This document shows positions 5,290 to 15,333 of a stretch of DNA of 64,000 nt, piece by piece. The stretch's first letter is position 1; each line of letters begins with the position of its first letter. A model generated the notes under the pieces. The model did not search any database, was not told the origin of the DNA, and was given only the letters and a program-made list of their open reading frames with translations. The stretch comes from Actinomadura luteofluorescens (GTDB lineage Bacteria > Actinomycetota > Actinomycetes > Streptosporangiales > Streptosporangiaceae), in assembly GCF_013409365.1 (NCBI RefSeq), contig NZ_JACCBA010000001.1:434001-498000 (forward strand), in the 5' to 3' direction. The position numbers were made by a program, and so were the translations under genes.

Positions 5290-5599
5290 TTACCGGCCCT
5301 GCGCCCGCCGGGGAGCCCGCTCGGCCCGCCAGCGGTCGACCAGGGCGGGCAGCTCGCGGAACATGAAGCCGTAGAAGTCGCGCATCTCCTCGAGGCGGCG
5401 CGCGGCGAGGCTGTCGTGACCGGCGGCGGCGATGCCCTGCTCGTCGGCCTCGAACATGGCCTGGATCAGCCCGTTCTGCGTGGACATCAGCGTGGCCCAG
5501 GCGCCCTCGCGGAGCCGGTAGTGCTCCCGGCGGCTGCCCGGCGCGGGAACGCGTTCGATCAGCCCGACCGTGGACAGCATCTTGATCGCCCCGGACACT
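5290..5599 (-). pseudogene. GbsR/MarR-type regulator, 3' remnant
   Basis: The last 102 or so codons of a winged-helix regulator. It reads SGAIKMLSTVGLIERV, PGSRREHYRLREGAW, then a helical C-terminal region ending RAPRRAQGR. The first part matches the recognition helix and wing of GbsR/MarR-like proteins that sit beside ABC exporters. The N-terminal dimerisation helix and first HTH helices are missing. At about 5599-5601 the sequence switches abruptly into an ABC ATPase on the opposite strand, so the 5' end was lost by deletion. A GTG at 5598 is in frame but is unlikely to make a functional protein. Confidence 0.75.
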
Positions 5600-5600
5600 G

Positions 5601-5935
5601 CAGAAGGTCGGCCTGGTCCAGGCGTTCATGCACGACCCCGAACTGCTGATCCTGGACGAGCCCACCTCCGGCCTGGACCCCCTGATGCAGCAGATGTTCC
5701 TGGAGATGGTGGCCGAGGCCCGCGACGCCGGGCAGACCATGTTCATGTCCAGCCACATCATGAGCGAGGTGGAGGCCGTCGCCGACCGGGTCGCCATCAT
5801 CCGCCAGGGCAGGCTCGTCGCCACCGGCGACCGTCGCCGGCCTGCGCGCCCGCTCCTCACTGCGGGTGCGGATCGGCTTCGCCGCCCCGGTGCGGGACGC
5901 CGAGTTCGCCGCACTGCCCGGAGCCTCCGGCCCCG
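5601..5935 (+). pseudogene. ABC exporter ATPase, truncated and frameshifted remnant
   Basis: Begins mid-domain at QKVGLVQAFMHDPELLILDE, just after where the LSGGM signature should be, and contains Walker B (LLILDEPTSGLDP) and the switch histidine (SSHIMSEVE). Walker A and the signature are absent. After RQGRLVATG (codon ending 5828) one extra base shifts the frame; translation resumes at 5830 as TVAGLRARSS, RVRIGFAAPV, FAALPGASG, then stops resembling the family at about 5935. A full ATPase is about 300 aa, so both ends and the frame are broken. Confidence 0.85.
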
Positions 5936-5955
5936 CCCGCGCGTTCAGCCGTTCG

Positions 5956-6545
5956 ATGTTCACCAGGACGCTCTTCGACAACCGGCCTGCTCGCCATGGC
6001 GTACGCCGGCTTCTACCCGCAGGTCAGCACGGACGCGGCCGGTGACGTGCCCGAGGCCATGAGCGGGTTCGGCTTCGACGACCCGACCTCGGCCGCCGGC
6101 TACCTCCAGGGCGCGGTGTTCGGGCTGCTCGTCCCGCTGCTGGCCACCTTCTACGGCGCGGCCACCGGCGCCCGCATGATCTCCGCCGACGAGGAGTCCG
6201 GCTACCTGGACCTGCTGCTGGCCCATCCGATCGGACGCACCCGCCTGCTGCTGCACCGCTTCGCCGCCCTCGCGGCCGGAGCCGTCGCGATCGCCGGCGC
6301 GGTGCTGCCAGCGATGCTCGCCGTCCGCACCGGCGCCGGACCGGACTCCGTCGCCTTCTCCGGCTTCGCCGCCCAGACCCTCAACCTGGCACTGCTGGCC
6401 CTCGTCTTCGGCGCCCTATCCACCGCTCTCGGCGCGGCCACCGGGAGAGGTCGCGCGTTCGTCTTCGGCGTGACCGCCGGGGCGGGCGTGCTGGCCTACG
6501 CCCTGAACGGCTTCCGGCTCGCCGACGCGGCCGTGATGGGCCTGG
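5956..6545 (+). pseudogene. ABC exporter permease, internally deleted remnant
   Basis: Starts MFTRTLFDNR (5956-5985), typical of the N-terminus of an ABC-2-like permease. A frame change and small deletion then join it to LLAMAYAGFYPQV (from 5987), followed by four hydrophobic segments (GAVFGLLVPLLATFYGA; AALAAGAVAIAGAVLPA; TLNLALLALVFGALSTALGA; FVFGVTAGAGVLAYAL) and EESGYLDLLLAHPIGRTRLL. It ends at about 6540 in NGFRLADAA, where the last third of the family is missing. With the two preceding remnants it once formed a regulator-ATPase-permease exporter module. Confidence 0.8.
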
Positions 6546-6593
6546 CGGTTCGGCCGCCGCGACCTCGGCCGCTGATCGCGCCTCCCACCGGCC

Positions 6594-9380
6594 TCAGCGC
6601 CACCATTGGAGCCCGGTGGGGGCGCTGCGCAGCACGTTGGTCCCGCAGTGGATGGACCCCAGGCGGACGTGGTAGTACCAGGCCTCCACCCAGCTCACCC
6701 GGTAGCCGATCCGGTCGGCGACGGCCTCGGTCCAGGCTTCGAAGAGGTCGACCTTGCGCTCGGGGATCTGCAGCTTCCGCCAGGCACTTCCCCTGAGGAA
6801 GCCCCGCGAGTCGAACGCGCCGGGGTTGGCCCGGACGATCTCCTGCCGGATCTCCCCGCGATCGCTGTCCTTGGGCCAGCCGTCGCGGAACGCGGAGGTC
6901 AGCTTCTCGGCGTCGTCCCCGGCGAGCTCGCCCGCTATCGAGCCGGGACGCGCCCAGTGGACCGTGCGGTCGAGTCCGCGGGAGCGCAGCCACTGCGGGG
7001 TGAACCGCGCCGCCTTCACGTCCCCGACCTGCTCGGCCACCGCGCGCAGCACCCGGACGGCCGCCTCGACGTCCATCCGCGGGCCGTGCGGCCGCGGGAC
7101 CAGCAGCCAGGGGGCGGCGACCTGGAGGTTCGCCAGGTTCGGGGTGAAGGCGGCGGTCTGCTCGGCGAGGGCCGACCGGTCGTCGAAGACGACCGGGAGC
7201 TTGAGGATGGGGATCGCGCCGTACTCGGTGGTGAGCTTCTCCTCGGTCTCGGTGAGCTGCCCCTTCGCCGGGATGGACGCGCCGTCCGGGCCCGTCCGGG
7301 GGCCGGCCGGTTCGGGGTCCTCCAGGTCCTCGTTGGTGCCGTCGCGGAAGTGGTCCAGCTCGAAGATCGAGATGCCGGCCGGCAGCGAGGGGGTGGAGGG
7401 CCGCCAGGGCGAGTCGGGCAGCGGGAGCGGGGAGTTCTGGATCGGGCCGATGAGGACCCGGTACAGCGCCGCCATCGACAGGTAGATCTCCGGCGGCTCG
7501 ATCGGCAGGAGCTGCCCCTTCTCGTGCTGGTGCAGCCACTGCATGCCGCGGAGCAGATGGGTGACCGGGTTCGCGCCCTCGTAGGTGAGGCGGGTGCGGG
7601 GCGTGGGCAGCCAGTTCTTGTACCGCGTCAGCTCGCCGGGCGACAGGCCCGCCATGAACTCCTGCCGCGCGGCCTCGATCAGGCGGAGCGCGACGAACGG
7701 CGAGGATCGCAGCACGGCGCCCTTCTGGCTCTGCGGGTCGCGAAGGTCGGGGACGAACGCGAGCACCTCGTCGACGTGGCCGACGTCGAGCCAGCTGGTG
7801 TCGACCTCCAGCGTCCGCTGGCGGCCCTGCGCCTGCCCGCGCAGGAAGGCCAGCAGCTCGGGGTCCATGTCGGTGGCGGTGGACCCGTCCGGCTGCGGTG
7901 TGGTCTGGTTGCCGACGACCACCACACCGGCCGGGGCCTTGGCGTGCGGCGGCCCGACCTCGATGTTGCCGCCGAAGTTGTGGCTGGAGTGCCACTGCTG
8001 GAGGCGCTTCTCCAGCCGCCCCACCTCCGCCTCGGACATCAGGAACTCCTGCTGCGGCAACCTGCCCACGGCGGGCAGCCGCAGCCGGAGCTGGGGCGCG
8101 CCCTGCGGGACCGGGATCTCCCGCCTGACGTCCTCGACCTGCTTCTCGGCGTTCTGGACGAGCCGGCCGAGCCTGTCGTGCTGCTTGAACCAGGGCGAGT
8201 CCGGACGTTCGGCCGCCGACCTGGCGACCTGCTTCAACCGGCCGGCCAGCGCGGACAGCTCGTTGCGGGCGCGGAAGAACTCGACTGTCGCGTCCCCGAA
8301 CAGCGCCACGGTCGTGTTCAGCTCGACGTCGGTGCCGATCCGCGCGATGGACTCCATCAGCTGCCGGCGCAGCATCTTCACCCGGATCATGATCACCAGG
8401 GCGCGGTCGCTGCCGGCGAAGCCGAGCCGCCCGGTCGTGCCGTCCGGGGAGGTGATGGTCAGCTCCCTGTCCCAGAACGACTGGCAGACCCCGAGGTTCC
8501 GGCTCGGGAAATGGCCGGTGACCACCGAGCCCAGATTGGGCGCGACGACTCCCCGGGCGGCGTCGGAACGGGTGCGCGGCGTGTGGAGGAGCACGCGCAG
8601 CGGGCCGTCCGGCGTCTCGGTGAAGGCGAGCTGGTACTGGTCCTGGATCCAGCTGTCGCCGCCGTGCGCCTCCATCGGGATGAGGGTCGGCGCCACGCCG
8701 AGCGGCTGGAGCGCGGCCCGCACCTCGGCGACGGCGGGACCGTTGTCGTCCAGCGGCCTGGCCGGATCGTCCGCGGTGACCTGGCACATGTAGAGCCGTT
8801 CCAGCGCGCCCGCGTTCCCGATCAGGACGAGCGGGGACAGGGTGAACAGCACCTCGTCCTCGACCACGGTGCCGGCGGGGTCGTCGCGCTCCAGCCAGAC
8901 CGTGACCCGGCCGCCCGGGAGCGCCGGGGCCGGTCCGCTGAGCACCGTGGCGGCCGACGGCGCGGCCGGCAGGTCCACCGCCTCCAGCGCGAGCCTGCGG
9001 GGGAACGGGGCGACGGGCAGGCGGAAGCGGACCCGGTCGCCCGTCCCGGCCCCGGCGAGCCGCCGGCCGGTGGCGTCGACCACCGCGCACCGCAGGGCGT
9101 CGGCGCCCCGCAGCACGACGAAAAGCGGTCCCGGGGCCGCGGTGACCTCCTCGACGAGGAGGCCGGCCGGTTCGTCGTCCCCGGCCGTCTTCACCGGAAG
9201 CTCGCGGTCCAGCCGGACGGGCTCGCCGGGGGTGACCGCCGTGGGCAGCCGCCGGGCGTCGCTGTCCAGGTTGGCGCGGACCAGCGCCCCCGGCGGCGCC
9301 TGCCGCCGCGCCCACTCGCCCGGCCGCGCGGTGAGCCTGCCGTCGCGGTCGAAGTCGGCGTGCAGCCGGTAGGCGGTCAT
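6594..9380 (-). CDS. Protein-arginine deiminase (PAD) family protein
   Basis: A 928-aa protein whose C-terminal two thirds match the PAD catalytic domain, which converts peptidyl-arginine to citrulline. Visible active-site blocks are DSWIQDQ (Asp247, equivalent to the PAD4 WMQDE aspartate), DVGHVDE (His535 and Asp537) and a C-terminal HCGTNV (Cys912) followed by a WW ending, as in animal PADs. Residues 1-230 look like beta-sandwich domains, as in PAD N-termini. No signal peptide or membrane segment is obvious. Its ATG overlaps the stop of the preceding 971-aa gene (ATGA), so the two are translationally coupled. The substrate is unknown. The assignment rests on motif order and spacing by eye; full PAD-like proteins are rare in bacteria. 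Confidence 0.85.
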   Translation of the reverse strand: MTAYRLHADFDRDGRLTARPGEWARRQAPPGALVRANLDSDARRLPTAVTPGEPVRLDRELPVKTAGDDEPAGLLVEEVTAAPGPLFVVLRGADALRCAVVDATGRRLAGAGTGDRVRFRLPVAPFPRRLALEAVDLPAAPSAATVLSGPAPALPGGRVTVWLERDDPAGTVVEDEVLFTLSPLVLIGNAGALERLYMCQVTADDPARPLDDNGPAVAEVRAALQPLGVAPTLIPMEAHGGDSWIQDQYQLAFTETPDGPLRVLLHTPRTRSDAARGVVAPNLGSVVTGHFPSRNLGVCQSFWDRELTITSPDGTTGRLGFAGSDRALVIMIRVKMLRRQLMESIARIGTDVELNTTVALFGDATVEFFRARNELSALAGRLKQVARSAAERPDSPWFKQHDRLGRLVQNAEKQVEDVRREIPVPQGAPQLRLRLPAVGRLPQQEFLMSEAEVGRLEKRLQQWHSSHNFGGNIEVGPPHAKAPAGVVVVGNQTTPQPDGSTATDMDPELLAFLRGQAQGRQRTLEVDTSWLDVGHVDEVLAFVPDLRDPQSQKGAVLRSSPFVALRLIEAARQEFMAGLSPGELTRYKNWLPTPRTRLTYEGANPVTHLLRGMQWLHQHEKGQLLPIEPPEIYLSMAALYRVLIGPIQNSPLPLPDSPWRPSTPSLPAGISIFELDHFRDGTNEDLEDPEPAGPRTGPDGASIPAKGQLTETEEKLTTEYGAIPILKLPVVFDDRSALAEQTAAFTPNLANLQVAAPWLLVPRPHGPRMDVEAAVRVLRAVAEQVGDVKAARFTPQWLRSRGLDRTVHWARPGSIAGELAGDDAEKLTSAFRDGWPKDSDRGEIRQEIVRANPGAFDSRGFLRGSAWRKLQIPERKVDLFEAWTEAVADRIGYRVSWVEAWYYHVRLGSIHCGTNVLRSAPTGLQWWR

Positions 9381-12292
9381 CGGCCGCTCGCGGCCTCGTG
9401 CCCGGAGACGGGGGAAGCGTCCCCGGGTACTTCGGTCCCGGCGGCGGCCGGCCCGGCCGCCGGCGCCACCGGAGCGCCGGGCTTCAGCGCGTCCCGCAGC
9501 GGGGGCACGTCCGAGACGTCCTGGACCAGCACCAGGTCGGTGGGGACGACCACCTCCCAGGGCTTGGATCCCGCCGGGTACGGGACGCCGTTGTCGAGCT
9601 TGCCGAGGTTGGTGGTGATCTCGTCGATGATCGGCACGTACAGGTCGTCGTCGATCCGCGGCACGTCGTTGCCGTCCCAGATGTTGCCGGTGTAGACGAA
9701 GTAGGCGACGGCGCTCTCGAAGCCGGGCCGGACCGGGACCTGGACGCGCGCGGCGCCGGCGCGCAGGAAGGCGGCGAAGTCGGCGTCCGGGTCGGTGACG
9801 TTGAGCGCGGAGATCCACCGGGCCCGCCGGCCCCACATGTGGGGGTAGCAGACGTAGAGCATGTTCTGCCACTCGAAGGCGTTCTCCAGGAACCGGATGA
9901 ACTTGCCGTTGGCGTTGGCCTTGTCGAGGTCCAGGATCGGCTCGGGCGGGGTCTTGGGCACCGGCGGCTGGAAGGAGTCGAGGTTCAGGTCGGGCTTCTT
10001 GGCCAGCATCATGATGACCCACTTCTTCAGCTCGTCGCGCTCCACCCGCCGGTTGACCAGCGGGTTGCGTCCGAACTGCTGGTTGGTGCTGCGCTGGAGC
10101 TCGCGCTGCGCGGCCCGCTCGTTGTACTCCGCGAGCTGCTGCTGGTAGGCGGCGATGACGGCGTCGTAGACCGACTGTTGCCACCGGGCCTCGGCCTCCG
10201 GCGTGACGACGCACTCCACGTCCACGCCGACCGACCAGCACAGCGCCGTCACCGCGATCGAGATCGACAGCTCCTTCTCCGCGGCGGCGGTCCCGCTCTT
10301 GGCGCCGAAGATGTCGGTGTAGACGTACAGCTGGCCGCCGATCACGATGTGGAAGTTGTGCACGCTGCCGGCCTCGAACAGGTGGGTCGCCTGCACGGTC
10401 ACGCTCTTGGCCGCGTACCCCTCCGGGATCTCGATCTTGCCGGAGCGGCCGAAGTTGGTCGTGGTGGTGCCGTCCTGCTTGTCGGAGAACGTGACGGTGC
10501 GGGTCGACGGCGGCGGAGCGGGCGCGTTGACGACGCGGTACCGGGCGACGAACTCGGTGTAGTTCCAGCGGGTCAGGTAGGACGGTCGCAGCGGCTGCCC
10601 GTCGGGGGTGGCCGGGGCCTGCGGCTTCACCAGCTCGCTGTCCTGCGGCGGGTTCTCCACCAGCCCGTAGAGGTAGTAGGCCGCCGGCTCGGGCACGACG
10701 AAGTCGAACATGAACCGCTGGCCGTAGTTGAAGACCTGCGCGTCGTAGACCTTGTTCAGCCACCGGTAGATGCCGCGGACGTGCTTGGTGAAGTTGTTGC
10801 TGAAGGCGTGCCGGTTGGTCTCCTCGAACTCCTCCAGCGTCCGCCGCCGGACAAGGCTGCGGACGCGCTCGCGCACCTTCTCCGCCGTGCGCTGCGTGAC
10901 CTCCTGGCTGAACGAGGAGGCCTTGCGCTGGGACTCCTCGGTCGAGGTGGAGCTGCCGGCCTTGACGCTGGAGGAGAACGACGCGGCCGGGCCGTAGCTG
11001 CCGCTCACCTGGAGCCCGGCCTCGATGTCGAGCTGGCTCTTGACGTGCTTCTCCGCCTCGTTCTGCAGCTCGTCCCGCTCGGTGGACTGCAGGTCCCGCT
11101 CCTTCTCGGTCTCGGTCTCCGTCTCGTCCTCCGTGGTCACCTCCACCTGGGTGAGCCGGCGGGTCGAACGCTCCCGGGTCTCCCCCGCCATGATGTTCTC
11201 GACGTGGGCGAACTCCCCCAGCTCGTAGGCCTTGATCTTCTGCCGCACCACCAGCAGGTCGGCCAGGCCGGCGGCGGAGTGCTGGGGCGCGGGCGGCGGG
11301 TCGGCGGCGAGCCCCTCGCCCCCGGCGCCCATGGCCCGGTGGAACCGGTGCAGGTCGATCTCGCCCCCGTCGAAGGCCAGGGTCCCGCCCGGCCGGACGT
11401 CCGCCGCGACCTGCCCGGCCGCGTGGTGCAGCTCGGCCTCGATCGCGGGGATCGCGCGGAACGGCCGCAGGTCGCCGGCGAGGAGGCCCAGCCGGTCCAG
11501 CACTCCCCGCGTCCGCTCGCCGAGCCCCGCCACGGCGTCGGCGGAGAGCTGCGGCTCGGCACTCGCCGCCTCCGGGGCTTCGGCGGCGGCGCCCGGAACC
11601 GCCGCCGCGGTCACCGACGAGAAGACCAGGTGCCTGCCGTCATGGACCAGCCGGAGCAGCTCCCGGTGCGCGCGTCCCAGGTCGTCAAGCCACGTCCGCG
11701 CCTCGTCATCGCTTTCCGGCGGGACGGGCGGCGCCGGTACGGACGCCCGAGCCGTGGGGAGCCGCGCGAAGAACGCCGGCAGCGTCGCCGGGGCGCCGAT
11801 GACGTCTCCGAGTGACCGCTCCGGCCCGAACGCCGCGGCCGTGGCGGCCAGCCCGAGCAGCTTGGCGTCGAGGAGGTCCCGCTCCGCGGTCCCCGCGGCG
11901 TCGCCGCGCAGCGCCGCCACCAGCAGCCGGTCGCTCAGCTCCGCCCGGACCGCGGCGAACTCCGGGGCCTCGACGAGCTCGTCCAGGGACAGTCCGTAGG
12001 CACGCGAGACGCAGCCGCCCAGGTCGGCCTCCTCCAGCGTGCTCTTCTCGTTCGCGTAGAACCAGGCCCGCAGCGGGGCGAGGTCCAGCTCGGCGGCGCG
12101 CGCGGCCTCGTCCGGCGGCTGCCGGTCGCCGGCGATCTCGCGGAGCCCCTCCCTGCCGGCGCCCGCCGCCGCGGCCTCGGCGAGGCGCCGGTACAGCCCG
12201 GACGACTCGACCATGACCGGCAGCCCCGCGTGGGTCGCCTGCTTGCGCGCAGGGCGCACGGTCATGAACCGGAATATGCCTTCACTCGCCAT
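9377..12292 (-). CDS. 971-aa protein of unknown function coupled to the PAD gene
   Basis: I do not recognise a family. Residues 1-360 are Ala/Leu-rich and helical. Residues about 360-530 form a charged, Glu/Thr-rich likely coiled coil (ETETETEKERDLQ, then QSEVTQRTAEKVRERVRS-like), broken by a Ser/Gly-rich patch (SGSYGPAASFSSSVKAGSST) that could be a membrane-active or beta segment. A conserved-looking C-terminal half follows, with beta-rich stretches (NFHIVIGGQLYVYTDIFG) and an aromatic region (WQNMLYVCYPHMWGRRARW). There is no signal peptide. A GGAGG lies 7 bases before the ATG. The tight ATGA link to the PAD gene implies joint function, perhaps scaffold, delivery partner or substrate; that is inference. 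Confidence 0.8.
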   Translation of the reverse strand: MASEGIFRFMTVRPARKQATHAGLPVMVESSGLYRRLAEAAAAGAGREGLREIAGDRQPPDEAARAAELDLAPLRAWFYANEKSTLEEADLGGCVSRAYGLSLDELVEAPEFAAVRAELSDRLLVAALRGDAAGTAERDLLDAKLLGLAATAAAFGPERSLGDVIGAPATLPAFFARLPTARASVPAPPVPPESDDEARTWLDDLGRAHRELLRLVHDGRHLVFSSVTAAAVPGAAAEAPEAASAEPQLSADAVAGLGERTRGVLDRLGLLAGDLRPFRAIPAIEAELHHAAGQVAADVRPGGTLAFDGGEIDLHRFHRAMGAGGEGLAADPPPAPQHSAAGLADLLVVRQKIKAYELGEFAHVENIMAGETRERSTRRLTQVEVTTEDETETETEKERDLQSTERDELQNEAEKHVKSQLDIEAGLQVSGSYGPAASFSSSVKAGSSTSTEESQRKASSFSQEVTQRTAEKVRERVRSLVRRRTLEEFEETNRHAFSNNFTKHVRGIYRWLNKVYDAQVFNYGQRFMFDFVVPEPAAYYLYGLVENPPQDSELVKPQAPATPDGQPLRPSYLTRWNYTEFVARYRVVNAPAPPPSTRTVTFSDKQDGTTTTNFGRSGKIEIPEGYAAKSVTVQATHLFEAGSVHNFHIVIGGQLYVYTDIFGAKSGTAAAEKELSISIAVTALCWSVGVDVECVVTPEAEARWQQSVYDAVIAAYQQQLAEYNERAAQRELQRSTNQQFGRNPLVNRRVERDELKKWVIMMLAKKPDLNLDSFQPPVPKTPPEPILDLDKANANGKFIRFLENAFEWQNMLYVCYPHMWGRRARWISALNVTDPDADFAAFLRAGAARVQVPVRPGFESAVAYFVYTGNIWDGNDVPRIDDDLYVPIIDEITTNLGKLDNGVPYPAGSKPWEVVVPTDLVLVQDVSDVPPLRDALKPGAPVAPAAGPAAAGTEVPGDASPVSGHEAASGR

Positions 12293-12471: not shown

Positions 12472-15333
12472 TCATCCCTGGTCGAAAAGGCGGGTTCGGT
12501 GGGCCCACGCGGCGGCTTCCAGACGGGTCGTCACACCCAGCTTGGCCAGGATGTTCGACACATGGACGCCGGCGGTCTTGGCGGAGATGAACAGCCGCTC
12601 GCCGATCTGGCGGTTGCTCAGACCGGCCGTCAGGAGCTCCAGCACTTCGAGCTCCCGGCCTGTGAGCCCGGCCGGGGCCTCCTGCCGGGCGGGCGAGGCG
12701 GTCGCGCCGAAGGGCAGGCGGGACCGCTTGGCCAGCTTCTCGACCTCGGCGCGCAGGGGCGCGGCGCCCAGGCCGGCCGCGATCGACGCCGCTTCGGCCA
12801 GGAGGACGGCGGCCTGCTTCCTGTCCTGGGCGGACAGGGCGGCGCGGGTGGCGCGGACCAGGGTCTCGGCCAGGGCATGGGGCTGCTCCAGGTCGCGCCA
12901 CGCCGCTATCGCCTCGTGCCACGCGTCGAGGCCGTCCTGCCTCGTCTCGGCGTCGAACGTCGCCCGGTACGCCCGCTGGAGCCGCCCGGTGACCGTCAGC
13001 TTGCCGCTCCAGGTGATCAGCCGCTCCCTCGGGCCCCCGGCGCGCGGGTGGTCGTTCAGGCCCTGCGTGGCGGCGAGCAGCAGGGGCCAGCCGTACCGGG
13101 GGCTGACCAGCAGATCGTGGTCGTCGAGGACGTGGCCGATCATCGCGGCCACCGCGCCCGCGTCCTGCCTGGCCCGGGCCAGCCTGCACTCCAGCAGGTC
13201 GGGTTCCAGGCACGACTCCTCCCCGCGGCTGTTGCCGCGCATGACGGCCCTGGCCTGCCCGGCCGCCGCCTCGGCCCGGTCGAACTCCCCCCGCCTGAGG
13301 TCGACGGTGGCCTGGATGATCCGCAGGTACGCCTGGTAGAGCGGCGGCGGCGCCAGACTCAGCGCGTTCCGGTTGACCTCGCTCGCCTCGTCCCAGCGGC
13401 CGAGTGAGAGCAGCGACTCCGACAGGTTCGGCGCCAGGAGCGTGCCGCGGGTACGGGCCAGTCCGAGACCGTCCGCGAGGGCCATGCCCTCCTGCGCGAC
13501 CTGCGCCGCCCGGGCGTGCTCGCCGGCGGCCTCCAGCGCGTCCGACTCGGTGACCGCCACGAGGAGCCGGGTGTCATGCGCCCCGGCGTCGGAGGCGGCC
13601 GCGCCGGCCTGGCCGAACAGCTCGCTCGCGGCCGCCAGGTCCGCGTTCGCCGCGGCCAGGGCGGCGAGCGTGACGAGCGCCTTCGCCTGGACGACGAGGT
13701 CGCGGGTCCCCCGCCCGATCTCCAGCGCCTCCTCGGCCGACGCCCTGGCCGGCGCGAGCCGTCGGTGGTTGCGCTCGGCGGTGGCCAGCTCGGCCAGCAC
13801 CCGGCCGCGCACCGCGGAGGGCGGGGCCGACGGGAGCGAGCGGGCGGCCCTCATCAGGTCGGGCAGCGGATCCTCGCCGTTGCGGTCGCGCATCGCCGCC
13901 CGCGTCTCCAGCAGCGCCGCGGTGCGCTCGGGGCCGGGCGACTCGTCCAGCGCGGCGGTCGCGACCGCGATCCCGGCGTCCAGTTCGCCCGCGTTCAGGC
14001 AGGCTTCGGCGGCCATCTCCATGACCGTGGCCCGGTCGGCGCCGATCCGCTCCGGCAGATCCGGCAACCGGTCCCACAGCCGCAGGACGCGGTCCAGCAT
14101 GCGGTGGCGCTCCGCGTACGCGTACGCGCGGCGGGCCGACTCGGCGGCCTGCCAGGCGGCCTCGGCGGCGCGGGCGTCCTCGCCGGCCGCGTTCCAGTGC
14201 ACGGCGATCTCGACGGGCGCGCGGTCCGCGGGGACCAGCCGCCGGTCGGCGCTGATCGCCTCGGCGCAGCGCCGGTGGAGCCGGACGCGCTCGCCCGGCA
14301 GCAGCCCCTCGTAGACCGCCTCGCGGATCAGGTCGCGGCGGAAGGCGTACCCGCCCTCGACCACGTCCAGGAGCCTGCGGCGCACGAGCGGCCGCAGCGC
14401 GTCCTCGAACTCCAGGTCGCCCATCCCGGTGAGCGCGGCCAGCAGGGCGTGGTCCACGGGCCCGGCGGCCACCGCGGCCGCGTGCACGACCCGCCGGCTC
14501 GGCTCGGGCAGGCGCTCGACGTCCGTCCGCAGCAGTTCGCGCAACGACCGGGCCGGGGCGTCTCCGGCGTCCACCAGGGCCTCGACGAACAGCGGGTTCC
14601 CTCCGCTGCGGCGGAAGATCCGGTCCACCCTCGGCGCGTCGGGCTCGTGGCCGAGCAGCGCGGCGACCTGCCGCTCCACCGCGTCCCTGGCCAGCCCGGC
14701 CAGCGCGACGCGGTGGACGTTCTCCCCGCGCGTGACCAGCGGCCGCAGCGGGTGCGCGGCGATGATCTCGTCGGGCCGGTACGTCCCGACCAGCAGCAGG
14801 CCGGGCCCGCTGACGTTCTGCGCGAGGAAGGCCAGGAGTTCGCCGGTCGACCGGTCGGCCCAGTGCAGATCCTCCAGCACCACGACCAGCGGCCGGTCGG
14901 CCGCGCCGCCCTCCAGCAGCAGGAGGACCTCCTCGAAGAGCCGGGCACGGCCGAGGGTCCGGTCCGGGTCGCCGTCGTCCTCGCCCAGCTCCGGCAGCAG
15001 CCGGGCCAGCCCGCGACGGCCGCCGCCCGGAAGCAGGCTCGTCGCCGCGGGGACTCCCATCGCGCGGACCAGCCGGCGCAGGGCCGTCACGAAGGCGCCG
15101 AAGGGCGGCCCGTCGACGCCCAGTTCGGTGCACCCGCCCGTCACCGTCCGCGCGGAGGACCCCAGCCCGGACGTGAACTCCCGGACCAGCCTGGTCTTGC
15201 CCATCCCGGCCTCACCGCCGACGAGCACCAGGGTCGCCGCGTGCCGGGCCTCGCCGTGCGCGGCGAGCAGCGCCGCTCGCTCCGGCCCCCTGCCCACCAG
15301 CACCGGGCTCACCAAACGGCTCGCCATGGCCAC
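12472..15333 (-). CDS. LAL-type (large ATP-binding LuxR) transcription regulator
   Basis: 953 aa from GTG 15333 (in-frame ATG at 15327). The N-terminus has an NTPase domain with Walker A GEAGMGKTR (about residue 40) and a Walker-B-like VVLEDLHWAD. A long TPR-like helical middle follows. A LuxR/GerE helix-turn-helix sits at the C-terminus (LTGRELEVLELLTAGLSNRQ, then VHVSNILAKLGV). LAL proteins are usually pathway-specific activators in actinomycetes. It lies upstream of, and on the same strand as, the 971-aa/PAD pair, so it may control it; no direct evidence is visible. Confidence 0.93.
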   Translation of the reverse strand: MAMASRLVSPVLVGRGPERAALLAAHGEARHAATLVLVGGEAGMGKTRLVREFTSGLGSSARTVTGGCTELGVDGPPFGAFVTALRRLVRAMGVPAATSLLPGGGRRGLARLLPELGEDDGDPDRTLGRARLFEEVLLLLEGGAADRPLVVVLEDLHWADRSTGELLAFLAQNVSGPGLLLVGTYRPDEIIAAHPLRPLVTRGENVHRVALAGLARDAVERQVAALLGHEPDAPRVDRIFRRSGGNPLFVEALVDAGDAPARSLRELLRTDVERLPEPSRRVVHAAAVAAGPVDHALLAALTGMGDLEFEDALRPLVRRRLLDVVEGGYAFRRDLIREAVYEGLLPGERVRLHRRCAEAISADRRLVPADRAPVEIAVHWNAAGEDARAAEAAWQAAESARRAYAYAERHRMLDRVLRLWDRLPDLPERIGADRATVMEMAAEACLNAGELDAGIAVATAALDESPGPERTAALLETRAAMRDRNGEDPLPDLMRAARSLPSAPPSAVRGRVLAELATAERNHRRLAPARASAEEALEIGRGTRDLVVQAKALVTLAALAAANADLAAASELFGQAGAAASDAGAHDTRLLVAVTESDALEAAGEHARAAQVAQEGMALADGLGLARTRGTLLAPNLSESLLSLGRWDEASEVNRNALSLAPPPLYQAYLRIIQATVDLRRGEFDRAEAAAGQARAVMRGNSRGEESCLEPDLLECRLARARQDAGAVAAMIGHVLDDHDLLVSPRYGWPLLLAATQGLNDHPRAGGPRERLITWSGKLTVTGRLQRAYRATFDAETRQDGLDAWHEAIAAWRDLEQPHALAETLVRATRAALSAQDRKQAAVLLAEAASIAAGLGAAPLRAEVEKLAKRSRLPFGATASPARQEAPAGLTGRELEVLELLTAGLSNRQIGERLFISAKTAGVHVSNILAKLGVTTRLEAAAWAHRTRLFDQG

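Follow-up and report, generated by a model that had tools for sequence, protein, structure and literature searches.

Citrullination, the conversion of arginine to citrulline by protein-arginine deiminases (PADs), is known from animal physiology and rheumatoid arthritis. PADs require more calcium than the bacterial cytosol contains, and they share the guanidine-modifying superfamily with Porphyromonas PPAD, with arginine deiminase and with hydrolases of small guanidino molecules. Here we describe a PAD gene and its large partner gene in 64,000 nucleotides of Actinomadura luteofluorescens DNA (contig NZ_JACCBA010000001.1, positions 434,001 to 498,000; the whole stretch is called the window). We give an even chance to the reading that the two genes form a module in which this PAD is the exchangeable enzymatic effector and the large partner handles or delivers it. 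An earlier note, made from the sequence alone, had called PADs known mainly from animals. That view is outdated: the accessible part of PMC8826395 already describes PADs from bacteria, actinobacteria among them. In the same part, PADs, pPAD and gADI come out as separate phyletic groups, and it is by this published phylogeny that the window PAD is set apart from Porphyromonas PPAD and arginine deiminase.

Like vertebrate PAD4, the window PAD has the same four catalytic residues, PAD_M-like and PAD_C-like parts, and equivalents of N153, D155, D157 and D179. It differs from the three-domain type (PAD4 and, by description, cyanobacterial PADs) in lacking PAD_N, in insertions of about 370 amino acids net, in altered calcium sites 1 and 2, and in being paired with a partner. 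The signal-bearing actinobacterial PADs (loci L085–L087), matched by description to the two-domain type of Cummings et al., have PF03068 and the catalytic residues in common with the window PAD. However, they score 78–113 bits on the window-family profile against 1329 for the window PAD, fall outside the partner-linked clade, have no partner in the roughly 4 kb around them and, in two of three cases, begin with a hydrophobic stretch. Unlike this type, the window PAD has no N-terminal signal sequence by a hydrophobicity proxy (0.17, compared with 2.3, 2.6 and 1.4 for L085–L087 in file order, their starts being uncertain).

Two kinds of toxin system resemble the locus in organization. In polymorphic toxin systems, as far as the accessible text of Zhang et al. 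(2012; PMC3482391) describes them, a single constant part likewise goes with a variety of toxin domains, one of which is Het-C. Those domains form the C-terminus of the carrier itself, whereas the PAD has its own gene. In its accessible text, that catalogue does not use the word ‘deiminase’. Binary (A+B) toxins of the CDTa/CDTb type, going by partly accessible sources, also pair a separate enzyme with a large protein, but no sequence or fold relation to the partner was found, and the partner family pairs with many kinds of next gene. A literature search, with preprints and most subscription journals outside its reach, found nothing on the PAD–partner pair. The modular pair looks new.

The PAD gene and its coupling to the partner

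The PAD gene lies at 6594..9380, as the earlier note had it, and was found to sit on the minus strand, with its ATG at 9380 and its stop at 6594–6596; the product has 928 amino acids. Read on the plus strand, 6594–9380 gives something different. The product matches Pfam family PF03068 (PAD) with an expectation value (E) of 8.6e-38 (130.8 bits against a cut-off of 25, in four stretches), and its nearest solved relative in a PDB sequence search is PAD4 (4e-18; 3.4e-47 with the family profile). Such a sequence match is far beyond chance. The motifs singled out in the note, WIQDQ (D247), GHVDE (H535, D537), HCGTNV (C912) and the C-terminal WW, were all found in the translation; the catalytic D, H, D and C are kept in 21/21 rows of PAD alignment A1 and in all 16 partner-linked locus PADs. 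A structure model of the window PAD, a check proposed with the note, aligns with PAD4 from residue ~112 and has the PAD fold, so that alignments and model both support the fold and the ordered catalytic residues. The gene is firmly a member of the PAD family, and its active site appears intact. The features on which the pairing and the active site depend are as follows.

9377..12292, minus strand: partner gene, 971 amino acids, immediately upstream of PAD; distant relatives align over residues ~342–930
9377..9380, minus strand: ATGA, PAD start overlapping the partner stop, read from the sequence; identical overlap in L005 and L006
8640..8642, minus strand: codon of catalytic Asp247 (PAD4 D350), by profile alignment to PAD4; A1 21/21, locus PADs 16/16
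7776..7778, minus strand: codon of catalytic His535 (PAD4 H471), by profile alignment, A1 and locus PADs
7770..7772, minus strand: codon of catalytic Asp537 (PAD4 D473), by profile alignment, A1 and locus PADs
6645..6647, minus strand: codon of catalytic Cys912 (PAD4 C645), by profile alignment, A1 and locus PADs

PAD and partner form one operon, and from the overlap their translation is expected to be coupled. A promoter and terminator scan found none, and the composition has no clear break. Both proteins have their closest relatives in Actinomadura, at 92% for PAD and 94% for the partner. Within the genus, the window-type PAD occurs in 4/65 genomes and the full-length partner in the same four. 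The two genes adjoin in three of these (the own genome, G875 and G896); in the fourth they are on separate contigs, with the partner near a contig end if its record is L007. Counting distant forms, the partner is present in 6/65 genus genomes, the own genome included, two of which have a distant partner and no PAD; behind one of these partners stands a phospholipase D (PLD)-like gene, behind the other a long frame in which an endonuclease/phosphatase domain was recognised. Beyond the genus both are rare: the partner was found in 2/296 genomes of the phylum, own included, and the window-type PAD in 1/394 genomes of the class, the own genome. These genus, class and phylum searches scored part of the first-look candidates.

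PF03068 occurs in 5/200 genomes of the bacterial family, including the own genome. The PADs of the other four, and a second PAD of the own genome, are of another type; three are readable, of which two start with a clearly hydrophobic stretch, and one is a remnant. The second PAD of the own genome, of the signal-bearing type (G000:C1:4476146-4477162; L001), is interrupted by a frame change and reads as two overlapping frames, through either a sequencing error or decay to a pseudogene.

Exchange of the gene behind the partner

The partner has no Pfam match above cut-off, no NCBIfam or PADLOC match and no clear PDB match, and belongs to a broad family of unknown kind, with 112 relatives in the protein collection. 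A species-genome scan, in which the best 80 of 167 relatives were retained, gave 79 partner loci in Actinomycetota, Bacteroidota, Pseudomonadota, Bacillota, Verrucomicrobia, others and one methanogen bin. PAD follows the partner on the same strand in 16 of the 79, with spacing from overlap to about 65 bases. A usable next gene is present at 74/79 loci, and at 58 of these 74 it is something other than this PAD type. These other genes include ones of the Het-C, patatin, phospholipase D and amidase types, and many are of no known kind. Because the best 80 of 167 relatives were retained, these counts lean towards the kin of the window partner.

Among 50 scanned non-PAD next genes, the most frequent Pfam families were Patatin (4), Het-C (4) and PLD (2); Amidase_3, amine oxidase, Tox-MPTase4, Pre-toxin TG, PhoD, LysM and PPK2 were among those matched once; NCBIfam gave the name of the type IV secretion effector VpdC to four. 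By these matches, the recognisable next genes behind partner relatives are shown to be chiefly hydrolases and phospholipases. Grouping placed the next genes of the 74 loci in 27 groups; at L024 the second gene was taken and an amidase passed over, and the L077 frame is doubtful. Two recurrent families stand behind distant partners, one in L013, L014 and L020 (365–776 amino acids) and one in L027, L031, L035 and L041 (758–853 amino acids), with no Pfam match above cut-off for L013 or L031. Both are candidate effector families.

In a tree of 59 partners, next genes change at least 4 times between PAD and other, and 35 times with all labels. The tree covers 59 of 79 loci, excluding five without a usable next gene, four with split frames and 11 near-duplicate Chryseobacterium loci. 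An approximately unbiased (AU) test rejected a single clade of PAD-partners (p 5.6e-65), for a group defined by next gene and with the tree already known. The PADs sit behind partners of three separate lineages; those of L043 and L046 group with the L012 PAD (support 95), yet their partners lie apart. A tree of 19 PADs separates the 16 that are linked to a partner from the other three; its rooting is unsure because long branches meet at that point. By these trees, PADs of one clade are shown to occur with three partner lineages.

When 917 frames from 66 loci were all compared with one another, what recurred in at least three loci was the partner, the next-gene families, response regulators and general proteins, together with antisense frames and neighbourhoods that related species have in common. 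The comparison used the longest frames of at least 80 amino acids and lost real genes in GC-rich loci (11/16 PADs were seen), so a small third gene may exist.

Architecture of the two proteins and their surroundings

The description of the window PAD as full-length in the earlier note holds for the catalytic part and, by profile and structure alignments to PAD4 only, for a PAD_M-like part. It does not hold at the N-terminus, where PAD_N is absent, both alignments starting at residue ~112, nor along the chain, where three insertions of 180, 154 and 118 amino acids replace 11, 60 and 13 in PAD4. The profile search suggested there matched the PAD model, whereas the PAD_N and PAD_M models remained unmatched, PF03068 being the sole Pfam family at E 1.

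7974..8513, minus strand: insertion 1, residues ~290–469, long helices in the model (gap between PAD4-aligned blocks; predicted secondary structure)
7209..7670, minus strand: insertion 2, residues ~571–724 (gap between PAD4-aligned blocks)
6717..7070, minus strand: insertion 3, residues ~771–888 (gap between PAD4-aligned blocks)

Residues N37, D39, D41 and D68, which we take to be N-terminal calcium ligands, are invariant in A1 and each present in 14 or 15 of the 16 locus PADs. In the column nearest PADI2 D389, the calcium-switch aspartate according to the accessible part of PMC8826395, the window PAD has N282 and the locus PADs have N (15/16) or S (1/16); the equivalence is unsure because the column falls outside the aligned PAD4 block.

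Three features were noted in the partner.

10691..11278, minus strand: four predicted strands of 26–30 residues flanking an insert, residues 339–534 (model, pTM 0.55)
10952..11035, minus strand: conserved Gly/Ser-rich amphipathic stretch with a SYGP turn, residues 420–447 (mostly pLDDT < 50)
10202..10504, minus strand: beta-sandwich domain, residues 597–697 (structure model)

The amphipathic windows of the partner lie 2.6–3.6 standard deviations above the protein mean. Together with the long predicted strands, the amphipathic stretch hints weakly at a membrane-inserting device. A cargo-specific N-terminal part of the partner was considered and rejected: in the rows that could be split, this part goes with the backbone rather than the cargo, L013 falling with PAD-partners and L030 with non-PAD partners. 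A split point was missing in L043, L046 and six further rows and came early in L025 and three others, which makes these rows uninformative.

Directly upstream of the partner, at 12472-15333 on the minus strand, is a large ATPase/LuxR-type regulator (AAA_16, GerE). On the other side, between kdp-like genes (recognised by eye) and PAD, the region 5290-6796 holds a short unmatched open reading frame and pieces of an ABC transporter in different frames, a weak ATPase match at 5628-6062 and an ABC-2 permease match at 5570-6796. These pieces, antisense over the PAD 3' end, look decayed.

Accounts of the pair

If the PAD is an exchangeable effector, the partner would be the shared component responsible for release, targeting or translocation of its paired enzyme, much like the B part of a binary toxin. 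The PAD would be idle in the producer, because PADs need calcium above the bacterial cytosolic level, and active once in another cell or at a site rich in calcium, converting protein arginines to citrulline there. A wider form of this reading is more tentative: a widespread, undescribed modular effector system of Bacteria and Archaea, in which a carrier of ~1000 amino acids, its N-terminal part changing fast and its C-terminal half conserved and membrane-active, may bring separately encoded, unrelated enzymes, citrullination included, into other cells.

Several observations weigh against the effector reading. By a crude hydrophobicity test neither PAD nor partner has a signal peptide, and the own genome has no match to the cap family PF14065 of extracellular contractile injection systems (eCIS) or to Phage_sheath_1 (PF04984). 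PAD4 E351, E353 and D369, presumably ligands of calcium sites 1–2, are replaced by Q, Q and H, so the calcium requirement of the window PAD may differ from that of PAD4. The partner model is weak (predicted local distance difference test, pLDDT, 74.4; predicted template modelling score, pTM, 0.55), partner residues 849–858 outscore the amphipathic stretch, and a fold comparison of the model retrieved no pore-former. The change counts (4 and 35) stand without a shuffled control. As to the next genes, the 50 scanned were hand-picked, some lying several hundred bases downstream and that of L067 about 1.5 kb; many lack a family match, since the 50 yield just 21 Pfam families, several per protein; and not every one need be cargo, as one is a polyphosphate kinase.

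A contractile injection apparatus (eCIS or tail) as obligatory carrier was rejected, the own genome matching neither marker family. Among 30 partner-bearing genomes, judged by these two markers, PF14065 occurs in 10 and PF04984 in 14 (11 above cut-off), counts that have no background rate and are no test of enrichment. A phage origin was also considered and rejected: a search of 50,697 phage records gave no match. In IMG/VR, a partner is present on three contigs; no PAD was found in IMG/VR or on plasmids. PHROGs searches with ten proteins of two of these contigs identified tail sheath and endolysin on L091 and endolysin, holin and minor tail protein on L089. On L089 (6786-11800) the partner and a 387-amino-acid unknown gene, possibly a prophage cargo gene, lie near the phage tail, holin and endolysin genes. 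On L091 the tail sheath gene is close to the partner, a sheath not found in the 79 loci, and the endolysin and patatin-like genes upstream of the partner have relatives in L060, L066, L068, L069 and L071.

An unlikely but serious alternative is an anti-phage or stress defence pair, in which the partner senses infection or damage and activates the variable enzyme inside the producer (abortive infection). Many defence systems are likewise built from one constant large protein and an effector that varies, signal peptides are absent by the crude test, and presence is patchy, with the partner in 6/65 genus genomes and copies on 12 plasmid records. Among these records is one of a haloarchaeon, whose second gene past the partner is annotated as patatin-like. 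NCBIfam also matched two next genes to DISARM DrmC (best E 1.6e-8) and two to a lipase of the CBASS anti-phage system (best E 0.00024). However, neither PAD nor partner has a PADLOC match at E 0.1; no nucleoside triphosphatase or nucleotide-sensor domain was found in the window partner, or among the 25 of 32 weak families listed for 46 relatives; no defence gene recurs within 10 kb, in a leaky comparison; and the amidase, Het-C and metallopeptidase-toxin matches among the next genes point outward.

It is improbable that the PAD citrullinates the producer's own proteins with the partner as scaffold, substrate or regulator. The overlapping genes imply co-production and the missing signal peptide would fit, but partner relatives elsewhere precede unrelated genes and the PAD gene is rare within the genus (4/65). 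A PAD-like hydrolase of small guanidino molecules (arginine, agmatine or an arginine in a natural product) is very improbable, even though the superfamily includes such enzymes and open reading frames 4–14 kb upstream resemble, by eye, a CoA ligase, a carrier protein and an acyl-CoA dehydrogenase.

If the PAD is indeed an exchangeable effector, citrullination would also be a weapon that bacteria release or inject, and one class of bacterial PADs would thereby gain a purpose. The partner family would then be a common carrier that locates many, mostly unannotated, effector enzymes by position alone.
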